Source: Nitrososphaerales archaeon
GTDB lineage: Archaea; Thermoproteota; Nitrososphaeria; Conexivisphaerales; UBA164
Direction of reading: 5' to 3'
Assembly (NCBI GenBank): GCA_023256355.1
Contig: JAGDXJ010000053.1
Location: forward strand, 75,957 to 127,566
Length of the DNA: 51,610 nt
Below are positions 9,591 to 15,273 of the stretch, one piece after another. The notes below the pieces were generated by a model that was not told where the DNA came from, made no database searches, and saw only the letters and a list, made by a program, of their open reading frames with translations. The position numbers and the translations under genes are program-made. How positions within the stretch are numbered: the stretch's first letter is position 1; each line of letters begins with the position of its first letter.

Positions 9591-10201
<611 letters not shown>

Positions 10202-11485: not shown

Positions 11486-12160
11486 TCAAAGAGGACCAGG
11501 GTTGCACGTGTTTAAATAAGGACATTTTTTACATTCCCATTTTTTCCCTTCTTGATAAGACTCAGGAGGTGGTGGTGAATTTATAGATATATAATAGTCA
11601 AGCATAACTACTCTTTCATAAAGTTTTTTCATCATTTCATCGTTTTTTATTACTTTAAATACTTTGATATTTCCATCTCTTTTATTCCAATACAGTAGAT
11701 ACCCTTCGTCAAAGTTCAAAGCCTGCATATAGGTATGTAATTGTAAAACATGGCTTTCGTATGGGGTATCAGGAATTTTACTCGCGCTTTTAACTTCTAT
11801 CAGATATTTTTTGCCTTCTAAATCAGCTATTATAACATCTACTCGTCCACTTAACTTTATTTTATCTGTTATTTCAAGACCGATCTTCGCCTCGACACTT
11901 TCTACATTGACTTTCTCTCCAAACGCTTTAACAACCAATTCATGAACACCTTTTCCTGTCATAAAAATAACAAGCTCTTCAGAAGTTACAGACTCTCCAA
12001 GTGTATAGATGTAATACTGTTTTCTTAAACAAGAACCTATGTATGAAGGATAGTAAACTCCCTTTATAATCTGATGTTCTGATTTTTCCTTTTTCCACAA
12101 AGAATCTAAACCGTCTTTTAATATACGTTCAAGCTTTTCTTCTTCAGAATCTTTATTCAT
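11486..12160 (-). CDS. Cas4/Dna2-like PD-(D/E)xK nuclease with Fe-S cysteines
   Basis: A 224-residue RecB-family nuclease. The core shows H73, D108 in SGRVDVII, the E-V-K pair at 122-124 in YLIEVKS and the QLHTY motif at 140-144. Four cysteines, C44 near the N-terminus and C210, C213 and C219 at the C-terminus, match the 4Fe-4S ligands of Cas4, AddB and Dna2. Such enzymes cut or resect single-stranded DNA ends. No CRISPR repeats or other cas genes are in the window, so a CRISPR role is unsupported. It is divergent from the SMC-like operon across about 120 bp and may share its promoter region. A joint role in DNA-end processing is an inference from this arrangement. Confidence 0.8.
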   Translation of the reverse strand: MNKDSEEEKLERILKDGLDSLWKKEKSEHQIIKGVYYPSYIGSCLRKQYYIYTLGESVTSEELVIFMTGKGVHELVVKAFGEKVNVESVEAKIGLEITDKIKLSGRVDVIIADLEGKKYLIEVKSASKIPDTPYESHVLQLHTYMQALNFDEGYLLYWNKRDGNIKVFKVIKNDEMMKKLYERVVMLDYYISINSPPPPESYQEGKKWECKKCPYLNTCNPGPL

Positions 12161-12279
12161 GAGATTAAAAAATTATTGTAGTTGGCATTTATAAATAGTG
12201 CTTTAAACTTAAGTTGTTTTTACTAAAAGTTAGATTCTTTCAACAACTTCAGATAAAGCTATATTAAATTAATGATATT

Positions 12280-14037
12280 TTGTTTGGGTTGAGCAAGGCT
12301 ATAATAAAAGAAGTCATACTAGAAAATTTTATGAGTTATAAATATGGAAGAATATCGTTAAAACCAAGGTTTAATTTTATAACTGGGCCAAACGGTGCAG
12401 GAAAAAGCGCTATCCTTCTTGGTATGTCTTTGGCTATGGGTCAGCTTTCTACAGAAAGGAGCAGAAAACTGGCTGATCTAGTCAGGAGAGGAGAAGATAT
12501 AGGCAGGGTTTCACTAGTGCTTAACAACTTAAGAGAAAACGGGAAAAGACCTTTTCCGGCTTATAACAAAGATGAAATAATGCTTTCAAGATACTTGCGA
12601 AAAGACGGATCTTACTGGTTTGAAATAGATTATAAAGAAGCATCTAGACAGCAGGTTCTTGACCTTCTAAAGAGGGTAGGCATAGATCCGAACAACCTTT
12701 TAATAATAATGCCTCAGGGGATGGTAGATGAATTTATTATGATAAAGCCCGAGGATAAGCTTAAAATGGTCGAGGAAGCTCTCGGCATAGCCAGCATAAG
12801 AGAAAATCTCCTTGGTGCAAAAAATCGTTTAAAAAACATAATCGCAGAAGAAAATCAATATCAAGATCTTATAGGAAAGGCTATGGATTCTCTAGAAAAA
12901 TGGCGTGAAGAATATGATAGACTAGTGATGAGCAGACAGCTTAAACAGAAACTGGAAGAGCTAAATGCAGAATACGCTTGGGCTGAAGTTTTAAAGCTCG
13001 AAAGATCAATTAATAATCTTAACGAAAAGATAAGCAGGATTAGCGAAGAAATTTCTACGCTGGTGGCTAAAAACAAAGAAACCATATCAGATTTTGAATC
13101 AGATAGAAAGAAGTTCAGCACTATTATTCAAATAATAAAAGACGGCACAGCAAAAGTATATAAAGGCGATGAAAAATCTATTACAATAATTTACGATTCA
13201 ATTAATGAAATTAACCCTCTTTTGGAAAGCATGCTTGAAAAGTACTCAAAGGTAAAGGTAGGAGAATACAGAATAGAGTCTTTGCAATCTGATCTTAAGG
13301 AACTCACCAAAGAGCTCGACTCGATAAAAAACGAGTTAAACGAGGCTTTGAAAAAGACAACAGGTCAGAGGCCGGCATCTGTAAGGACAATATCTGAAAT
13401 AGAAGATGAGATAAAAACTGTTAACGCACAGCTTAAAGTCCTTGGCGATGTAAATCAAGAAGCAGAAAAGGTATATCTTGAATTCAAGGCTAAAGTGGAC
13501 GAATACAAGGAAAAGCTTGAAGAAGTAAGAAAAAACAAGGAAAAAACATTAAAAGAAATAGAAAGTAGGTCTGAAGAATGGAAAGAAGTTATAAGGAAGA
13601 CGATTTCCGAAATAAACGGAAAGTATAACGAAATTATGTCGAGGATAAACGCAAGCGGCAAAGTGATACTCGTTAATGAAAACGATCCAGAAAATGCAGG
13701 TCTGAGACTTTATGCAAGCTTTGTAGGAACTGATTTGATACCATTGGACAGCTTTTCGCAGAGCGGCGGTGAGTTGAGCGCAGCAGTCACTGCTTTTTTG
13801 CTCGCTGTGCAGATGTACATAGTTTCTCCATTCAGAGCTCTAGATGAGTTTGACGTTCATATGGATCCAATAATCAGAGAAAAGTTCATCAAAGCTATAT
13901 ATGAAGTATCACAGGGCAGTGAAACACAATACCTCATCATAACTCCTAATTTTCCAAGTTTCTATGCACCAGATATAAACTTTATAATAGTTCAGAAAAG
14001 TCAGAGCGGAAGCGCCCCTAAGGTGATAGCAAAGTGA
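12280..14037 (+). CDS. Short SMC5/6-like ATPase
   Basis: A 585-residue SMC/Rad50-superfamily ATPase. Head parts: Walker A GPNGAGKS (36-43), an IIMPQGMVDEF segment (142-152) as in SMC6-type heads, ABC signature QSGGELSA (494-501) and Walker B RALDEFDVHMD (519-529). LDEFDV...MD is typical of SMC6 rather than Rad50 or condensin SMC. Two short coiled coils (about 205-285 and 330-450) flank a small central segment at about 285-325 that would be a miniature hinge. No CxxC zinc hook is present. The arm is far shorter than in canonical SMC. The start is TTG at 12280 or, equally plausible, TTG at 12289. The next two genes overlap it and each other. It may be related to archaeal coalescin-like SMC proteins; alignment is needed to decide. 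Confidence 0.78.
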   Translation: MFGLSKAIIKEVILENFMSYKYGRISLKPRFNFITGPNGAGKSAILLGMSLAMGQLSTERSRKLADLVRRGEDIGRVSLVLNNLRENGKRPFPAYNKDEIMLSRYLRKDGSYWFEIDYKEASRQQVLDLLKRVGIDPNNLLIIMPQGMVDEFIMIKPEDKLKMVEEALGIASIRENLLGAKNRLKNIIAEENQYQDLIGKAMDSLEKWREEYDRLVMSRQLKQKLEELNAEYAWAEVLKLERSINNLNEKISRISEEISTLVAKNKETISDFESDRKKFSTIIQIIKDGTAKVYKGDEKSITIIYDSINEINPLLESMLEKYSKVKVGEYRIESLQSDLKELTKELDSIKNELNEALKKTTGQRPASVRTISEIEDEIKTVNAQLKVLGDVNQEAEKVYLEFKAKVDEYKEKLEEVRKNKEKTLKEIESRSEEWKEVIRKTISEINGKYNEIMSRINASGKVILVNENDPENAGLRLYASFVGTDLIPLDSFSQSGGELSAAVTAFLLAVQMYIVSPFRALDEFDVHMDPIIREKFIKAIYEVSQGSETQYLIITPNFPSFYAPDINFIIVQKSQSGSAPKVIAK

Positions 14038-14744
14038 ACAATAAAGAAGAAGAGTTTAAGAAGATAATAGAGCTACCAGAAGCTCTTAAAAAACTTGGCG
14101 GAGATCCGTTTGCTGTAAACGTTGAAGAGCTTTTGCAGAAAATAAATGCAAACAAGCTCAAAGACAGGGTTAAATCTTTAAAATATGAATCTCAGGCATT
14201 AAATTCCGTATCCATTGTTGTTGAAAAACAGGAAGAATGGGTGCTTGACGCGCTTAAAGGTTTGAAGATAGACCCTCAGCTCATAAAAGAAAAGGTAAAG
14301 CAGATGCCTTTTAAAGATCTAGGTCTTATACTTGCAAAACACACAACCCCTACGCTAGGTATCAAAAGAATCAGCCGTGAAAGAATAAAGATGGCTGTTG
14401 AATATTTGGGTCTGGTAGAGCCATGGGGTAAAAAAGCCAGTTTGGGAAGCGTTACAAGACATGAAAATGAGTACACACAGAACATCGTTTTTGACAAGAG
14501 GTTTGAAGAAGAAGCTATGGAATTTTACGAAAAAAGTTTAAAAGAAGAACTTCAAAAATCTAAAACTGTGCCTTATAAGGGGTTTATTGATAAGTTTGAT
14601 GAAAAACTTAAAGTGGCGTTTTATATAGCTTACCTTTCTACTGTTGGCTTACTTTCGGTTATAAGAAATCCGCTAACTGGGGAAACTCTTATAACCTCTC
14701 CCCGTGGCGGAGAATTTGAAAGCGTGGCGATACCATTTGGCTGA
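14034..14744 (+). CDS. Unknown helical protein in kleisin position of SMC operon
   Basis: A 236-residue, largely alpha-helical protein that I do not recognise by motif. It starts on a GTG overlapping the SMC-like stop (GTGA). The N-terminal 60 residues are charged helix, the middle (about 60-160) contains two or three amphipathic helices, and the C-terminal third (about 185-236) could be a winged helix with a wing at NPLTGETLITS. A helical N-domain, linker and C-terminal winged helix would be kleisin architecture, and the position between an SMC-like ATPase and a winged-helix protein is that of ScpA or MukF-type subunits. This is inference from order and fold guess, not homology. Confidence 0.5.
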   Translation: MNNKEEEFKKIIELPEALKKLGGDPFAVNVEELLQKINANKLKDRVKSLKYESQALNSVSIVVEKQEEWVLDALKGLKIDPQLIKEKVKQMPFKDLGLILAKHTTPTLGIKRISRERIKMAVEYLGLVEPWGKKASLGSVTRHENEYTQNIVFDKRFEEEAMEFYEKSLKEELQKSKTVPYKGFIDKFDEKLKVAFYIAYLSTVGLLSVIRNPLTGETLITSPRGGEFESVAIPFG

Positions 14745-15273
14745 AGAAGAACTCCAAAAAAAGGCCTTAAAGGCGCTAAGGCTTTTGTTGATCGAAACGT
14801 CTTCTTTACCAGGTTTAAAGGGCTGGGAGTTAAAGAAGAATCTTGGAAAAGATTATCTTGAGGCAATAAAGGTCGCTTCACTCGAAGCGGATAAATTAGG
14901 TATGAAAATAACAATAGTCCCCGATGATGAAGCGCCCAAGGACTTTGAAAAGGCTAGATTTGTCTTGATGACGAAGGAGCCACTTTCTGAAGCAGATTAC
15001 GGTAGGTGGCTCCGCATAGAAGAAATAGCTTCGTTAGCAATGATTCTTGTAGAAATTTCTCTGAGGGGAGGATCTGTACCTCTTGAAGTTATTATAAGGA
15101 TCTTGACAGAAAAGCTTCCTAGATGGAGGGTTAATCAAATAATATCTAAGCTGGAAAGGCTTGGATACATAAAAGAAGAGAACGGGATTGTTTTTGAGGA
15201 TTGGAGGTCAAAAGTTGAAATAGACGAAACAGGGTTCATAAAAGACATAATACTTTACAGACAAGATAAATAA
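14737..15273 (+). CDS. Winged-helix protein in KITE position of SMC operon
   Basis: A protein of about 178 residues starting from the TTG at 14737, which overlaps the previous stop by 8 nt; a GTG at 14704 would add 11 residues and lengthen the overlap to 41 nt. Two winged-helix-like parts are visible. The first has LKGWELKKNLGKDYLEAIKV followed by a strand KITIVPDD. The second has SVPLEVIIRILTEKLPRWRV, helix QIISKLERLGYIK and a wing at EENGIVFED. Tandem winged helices beside an SMC and a helical protein are the pattern of KITE subunits (ScpB, MukE, Nse1/Nse3). A plain DNA-binding regulator is the alternative. Translational coupling with the ATPase favours a complex subunit. Confidence 0.5.
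   Translation: MAEEELQKKALKALRLLLIETSSLPGLKGWELKKNLGKDYLEAIKVASLEADKLGMKITIVPDDEAPKDFEKARFVLMTKEPLSEADYGRWLRIEEIASLAMILVEISLRGGSVPLEVIIRILTEKLPRWRVNQIISKLERLGYIKEENGIVFEDWRSKVEIDETGFIKDIILYRQDK

Follow-up and report, generated by a model that had tools for sequence, protein, structure and literature searches.

Introduction

Complexes that combine a structural maintenance of chromosomes (SMC) ATPase with a kleisin and a KITE subunit comprise, according to a 2023 review, Smc5/6, the prokaryotic Smc-ScpAB, and MukBEF/MksBEF/Wadjet; in them, ATP joins the SMC heads, DNA comes to lie on top, and kleisin and KITE hold the DNA in a clamp (PMC10512200). Canonical archaeal Smc has been reported without a KITE (PMC7055376). 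An archaeal group of 'SMC5/6-related' SMC proteins was recognised in 2021 by Yoshinaga and Inagaki, as reported in PMC9389158 and PMC10003631, and the account of this group in PMC9389158 does not mention a kleisin, a KITE or a missing hinge. Here we describe a trio of genes for a miniature SMC ATPase (mini-SMC), a kleisin-like and a KITE-like protein, located in a 51,610-nucleotide stretch of a Nitrososphaerales archaeon (phylum Thermoproteota; GCA_023256355.1, contig JAGDXJ010000053.1, our G000:C11:75957-127566), which is referred to as the window; the source genome measures 1.19 Mb and is 82% complete.

The trio probably constitutes an archaeal complex of the Smc5/6 lineage, consisting of a mini-SMC placed as sister to SMC5+SMC6, an Nse4-type kleisin and an Nse1/Nse3-type KITE. 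Directly supported are the homology of the three subunits, their linkage and co-occurrence, and the lack of a hinge or zinc hook. The archaeal 'SMC5/6-related' SMCs are probably the same as, or overlap with, the mini-SMCs. In the literature we found no report of archaeal Nse4- or Nse1/3-like partners, of the operon, or of hinge loss, although Yoshinaga and Inagaki (2021) and a 2024 preprint by van Hooff may overlap.

The mini-SMC and its ancestry

The mini-SMC gene (12280-14037, forward strand, TTG start) encodes 585 residues, with the Walker A motif at about 12385-12408, an invariant arm tryptophan at about 12979-12981, the signature SGGE at about 13762-13773 and the Walker B motif DEFDVHMD at about 13843-13866, all on the forward strand. 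A profile built from 28 mini-SMCs was searched against proteins of solved structure (PDB), with the best matches to Smc5 (3e-63) and Smc6 (2e-61), followed by archaeal Smc (2e-57), the SMCs of condensin and cohesin (1e-42 or weaker) and Rad50 (1e-13). The Walker B stretch, in which the initial annotation had seen an SMC6-like motif, is identical in 27 of the 28 aligned sequences and resembles the DEFDVYMD of SMC6; the signature region QSGGERS is SMC5-like, and the invariant tryptophan aligns with the human SMC6 segment 'EMAWAVV'.

A maximum likelihood tree of head domains was calculated from 342 columns and 65 sequences with Rad50 as outgroup. SMC2 and SMC3 sequences were taken from PDB alignments, except that the last part of the C-terminal head of human SMC2 was completed from the bait sequence; SMC3 was represented by its N-terminal half, and SMC1 and SMC4 were left out. 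The tree splits mini-SMCs, SMC5 and SMC6 from canonical archaeal SMC, SMC2/SMC3 and Rad50 (approximate likelihood-ratio test (aLRT) 99.1, ultrafast bootstrap (UFBoot) 100), and the mini-SMCs are monophyletic (98.6/99). Approximately unbiased (AU) tests on a reduced set rejected both the grouping of mini-SMCs with canonical SMCs (p=0.0125) and that of canonical SMCs with SMC5/6 (p=6.7e-5). In the Rad50-rooted tree and by the AU tests, the mini-SMC is placed as sister to the SMC5+SMC6 pair, and the SMC5/6-like ATPase of the initial annotation is borne out by profile search, tree and AU tests alike, all of which group its head with SMC5/SMC6 over canonical SMC.

The miniature coiled coil noted earlier also held up. 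From Walker A to signature, 64 mini-SMCs span 438-563 residues as compared to 993-1169 in canonical SMCs; the mini-SMC is of half size. None of the 28 mini-SMCs was matched by the Pfam SMC_hinge model, and none of the 64 contains a CxxC zinc hook. The middle is the least conserved part of the 28-member alignment, and the conserved region preceding the C-terminal head aligns, in our reading, with the head-proximal arm of SMC6, which suggests that the distal arms and the hinge are what the mini-SMC lacks. Identity with a canonical condensin SMC was rejected, as the protein falls outside the canonical clade in tree and AU tests and no hinge was detected in it.

The kleisin-like and KITE-like subunits

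The kleisin-like gene (14034-14744, forward strand, GTG start, 236 amino acids) overlaps the end of the SMC frame and is itself overlapped by the KITE-like gene (14704-15273, forward strand), for which a GTG start gives 189 amino acids and an in-frame TTG at 14737 the 178 amino acids of the initial annotation. For the kleisin-like family, a profile search against 177,635 PDB sequences returned as best matches Nse4 (0.0077), the ScpA N-domain (0.013) and the Nse4 homologue EID3 (0.03); an unrelated M protein also appeared in this top group. In the AlphaFold2 model, a helical domain containing a long helix lies at the N-terminus and is followed by a flexible middle and by a C-terminal winged helix, the last of which had previously been marked as possible. 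When this model was compared with 350,542 chains in Foldseek, Nse4 chains took ranks 1-2 (E-values 8.7e-3 and 2.4e-2) and condensin/cohesin chains four of the next five; judged by their lengths, we take these latter chains to be kleisins. Profile-profile comparison with archaeal ScpA in hhalign gave 87.8% probability over the C-terminal domain of ScpA as compared to 0.2-0.3% in two control comparisons. The 236-residue protein is thus clearly recognisable as a kleisin from its sequence and predicted fold, and its affinity to Nse4 is a matter of rank.

The KITE profile had as its top three PDB matches Nse3/MAGE (0.0076) and Nse1 twice (0.22 and 0.26), and the Pfam model SMC_Nse1 weakly matched four of 27 members (best 0.0071). 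The predicted structure is a tandem winged helix (predicted local distance difference test (pLDDT) 87), the four folds nearest to it all come from Nse1/Nse3 entries (E-values 3.6e-5 to 1e-3; template modelling scores of 0.59-0.61 to two chains), and MukE appears twice among the top eight. No RING domain, as carried by eukaryotic Nse1, was found on the KITE proteins, which contain 0-2 cysteines each. Both partners that the initial annotation had suggested are thereby supported: alongside the mini-SMC the locus encodes a kleisin, Nse4-type by its rank in sequence and fold, and a KITE protein with Nse3/Nse1 on top by sequence and Nse1/Nse3 by fold.

Only the SMC might be of the Smc5/6 lineage, with kleisin and KITE recruited separately, for example from an ScpAB-like set, and the composition convergent. 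The clearest profile-profile match, which was to the archaeal ScpA C-domain in a comparison without Nse4, and the weak sequence E-values to Nse4, Nse1 and Nse3 would fit such an origin. We nevertheless regard it as quite unlikely, as Nse4 and Nse1/Nse3 rank above the condensin, cohesin, ScpA and MukE equivalents in the profile searches as well as by fold, in agreement with the SMC tree.

Distribution and linkage

Of 61 near relatives, 29 encode the 236-residue kleisin-like protein, and each of the 28 loci fetched carries the trio in the order ATPase, kleisin, KITE that had been read from the window. Frames kept in this order in 28/28 loci of the class, and far beyond the class, show that the three-gene arrangement is not chance. 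Within the class, 63 of 300 genomes are matched by the KITE profile and, in a phylum sample of 398 Thermoproteota genomes, 157 genomes from 78 of 164 genera (about 40% of genomes), with no match in family f7 of that sample. A further 40 loci from the phylum, including one Thermofilales record (L067), all contain kleisin and KITE genes, adjoined by the SMC gene in 36. Contiguity on one strand, scored by clustering, was found in 59 of 60 scorable loci, and a scan of named genomes with a Walker A pattern gave at least two loci. In the families with a non-adjacent SMC gene (f27, f51, f80), the mini-SMC was encoded elsewhere in 7/7 genomes searched; the three genes therefore travel together even when unlinked. 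This broad, mostly single-copy and linkage-conserved distribution looks like that of a housekeeping system.

Among the unlinked arrangements, two loci of family f51 (L118, L128) have about 2 kb between kleisin and KITE genes and the mini-SMC gene about 5-9 kb beyond on the opposite strand, and in one f27 locus (G312:C17:22229-33854) the mini-SMC gene lies apart from kleisin and KITE, about 10 kb from a gene for a 1306-residue hinge-bearing SMC.

Co-occurrence also bears on whether the mini-SMC acts alone as a RecN/RecF-like repair ATPase, next to merely linked, transcription-related winged-helix proteins. Hinge-less SMC-like ATPases of about 550-600 residues are indeed known (RecN, RecF), but co-occurrence persists where the genes are unlinked, the second protein has the layout and the top matches of a kleisin, and the tree puts the mini-SMC inside the true SMC group, which makes a lone ATPase very unlikely.

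Relation to canonical SMC

The source genome encodes a separate canonical SMC (a frame of 1128 residues on contig 45), and among the 157 KITE-positive genomes 75 have an SMC with a Pfam-detectable hinge. When an SMC model was run on 12 hinge-negative genomes, six proved to carry a full-length SMC of 1128-1174 residues; lack of a Pfam hinge was therefore rejected as proof that a canonical SMC is absent, and the remaining 82 KITE-positive genomes represent an upper bound for such absence. In the other six (G302, G306, G353, G393, G605 and G609; 95-99% complete), which make up six of fifteen genomes searched, only the mini-SMC was found besides Rad50-sized proteins. Given the hinge-bearing or full-length SMC in many trio genomes, the mini-complex is usually an additional complex, and in some lineages, as represented by the six genomes, it may be the sole SMC-kleisin complex.

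These six genomes, together with literature reports that known SMC-kleisin-KITE machines extrude loops, would also suit a miniature condensin substitute, that is, a true loop extruder organising the chromosome whatever its ancestry. Such a function is unlikely in view of the hinge SMC in 75/157 trio genomes, the full-length SMC with unrecognised hinge in several more, and the missing hinge and short arms of the mini-SMC.

Neighbouring genes

Divergent from the trio, across a gap of 119 bp, lies the gene of a Cas4-like PD-(D/E)XK Fe-S nuclease (11486-12160, reverse strand, 224 amino acids), which together with the trio makes up the four open reading frames of the initial annotation, all confirmed in their coordinates. 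The four cysteines proposed for an Fe-S cluster stand at Cas4 positions and the PD-(D/E)XK core was recognised (Pfam PDDEXK_1 1.6e-10, Cas_Cas4 5.9e-8); at 50.3 bits against a TIGR00372 equivalog cut-off of 65, the protein is classed as Cas4-like only. Homologues occur within the order, yet adjacent to the trio only in three of four resolvable loci of this genus; elsewhere in the order they lie about 244 kb (G012) or 340 kb (G014) away, and in families f5, f6 and f8, which carry the trio, none was found. A second Cas4-like paralogue with 63% identity is encoded in the same genus (G002:C25:4789-5433).

The initial annotation had suggested that trio and nuclease might be coupled in one system and named non-conservation of their adjacency as grounds to drop it. 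With adjacency confined to one genus and the nuclease not found in many trio genomes, the combined system falls by that measure, the nuclease is judged to be outside the complex, and the trio stands; of the earlier overall reading, the ATPase of SMC5/6 type, its miniature coiled coil and its two partners, one kleisin-like and one KITE-like, are retained and the nuclease coupling discarded. This also affects a Wadjet- or Lamassu-kind defence system with the nuclease as effector, to which SMC, kleisin, KITE and nuclease would correspond in plan, with the mini-SMC weakly similar to the LmuB and JetC models. Apart from the non-conserved adjacency, kleisin and KITE match no model in the defence library, no trio homologue was found in viral contigs, and the distribution in the phylum is broad, mostly single-copy and linkage-conserved; we rejected this identity as extremely unlikely.

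The commonest neighbour of the trio is a Lhr-type helicase of about 940 residues (DEAD, DEAD_assoc, WH_Lhr), found at 37 of 68 loci (L046-L064, L098-L130). It is a conserved neighbour that has been lost from the genus of the window. The helicase gene is downstream and convergent in 32 of 36 scored cases, and in many loci it abuts the KITE gene or runs into it; a convergent gene does not form an operon with the trio, and therefore only hints at a repair or replication setting. Three further observations concern the surroundings: a conserved family of about 230 residues without a Pfam match is encoded near the trio in 16 loci (for example L123:8468-9220); in family f6 (L055, L058, L060-L065) a gene of the metallo-beta-lactamase fold, a possible operon partner there, stands directly 5' of the SMC gene in the same orientation; and in the window a gene for a 181-residue protein with an Mrr/NERD-type nuclease domain (9656-10201, reverse strand) overlaps a RimI-like acetyltransferase gene, a pair that is also kept next to the trio in G002 and G004.

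Proposed mechanism

By analogy with the known KITE complexes, the trio would most likely act as a DNA clamp that is gated by ATP and serves chromosome maintenance. Two mini-SMC heads would close on two ATP molecules, with the N-domain of the kleisin bound to one neck and its winged helix to the other head; DNA would be pressed onto the joined heads by the KITE, which probably sits on the kleisin as a dimer. The SMC pair, having no hinge, would be held together by ATP, by the kleisin, and perhaps by a short coiled-coil hairpin at its tip, which would make a clamp likelier than a long-step loop extruder; the mini-complex would keep the clamp and drop the large hinge-closed ring. Because the hinge and distal arms are missing, loop extrusion is less obvious here than in the known complexes. 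The likely role of the trio is chromosome maintenance or repair.

Several points weigh against assigning the trio to the Smc5/6 lineage as such a machine. The SMC5+SMC6 grouping itself reaches only 66/92, the SMC6 branches are long, and eukaryotes enter the tree with few sequences (two SMC5, two SMC6, two SMC2 and half of one SMC3). Individual sequence E-values for kleisin and KITE are weak (0.008-0.3), so that the homology suggested for them is a case of rank and of agreement between methods rather than of single E-values, and the kleisin model, with its low-confidence middle, has a mean pLDDT of 70 and a predicted template modelling score of 0.38. Complex formation, activity, the clamping of DNA and the role in repair are all predictions.

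A wider proposal, which we put forward tentatively, is that of a hinge-less SMC-kleisin-KITE machine that would be sister, on the archaeal side, to the entire Smc5/6-Nse4-Nse1/3 module, predating the duplications into SMC5/SMC6 and Nse1/Nse3, and the sole SMC-kleisin complex in some Thermoproteota. If true, such a machine would differ from the hinge-held complexes reviewed so far. There is no settled account of where the kleisin-KITE module of Smc5/6 came from. An archaeal three-protein version would bear on the ancestral function of Smc5/6, and a small, sometimes sole SMC complex would allow tests of the workings of a hinge-less SMC and of whether a cell can manage with DNA clamping alone.

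Comparison with known systems

With the ASRP family (coalescin ClsN, Sph) the mini-SMC shares the status of a short archaeal SMC-superfamily protein of about 600 residues. ASRPs mostly bear a zinc hook (PMC9389158), in contrast to the mini-SMCs with CxxC in 0/64, and at 54 bits the score with the ASRP model stays below the cut-off of 300; ASRP/coalescin identity was rejected on both grounds. MukBEF/MksBEF/Wadjet have SMC, kleisin and KITE in common with the trio, and MukE is among its KITE fold matches; the trio differs from them in that a dedicated, conserved nuclease and Jet homology of kleisin and KITE, as in Wadjet (JetABCD), were not found.

The Smc-ScpA(B) condensin has the same SMC-kleisin plan and homology in the ScpA C-domain, but its genes are separate in these genomes and its SMC is full-length with a hinge, while the SMC of the trio is neither of the canonical clade nor hinged; the trio qualifies the view that archaeal SMC complexes are devoid of KITE subunits.

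Closest is the core of Smc5/6 (Smc5, Smc6, Nse4, Nse1, Nse3), a machine that protects the chromosomes of eukaryotes, with which the trio shares the lineage of the SMC head, a kleisin whose N-domain is helical and whose C-terminus forms a winged helix, and a tandem winged-helix KITE. It has one KITE instead of two, and no RING, hinge or distal arms, and none of Nse2/5/6 was seen in the loci. Because it has a single SMC gene without a hinge, rather than two different SMCs with hinges and long arms, the trio is filed as a sister of the eukaryotic-type Smc5/6 complex and not as a standard member.

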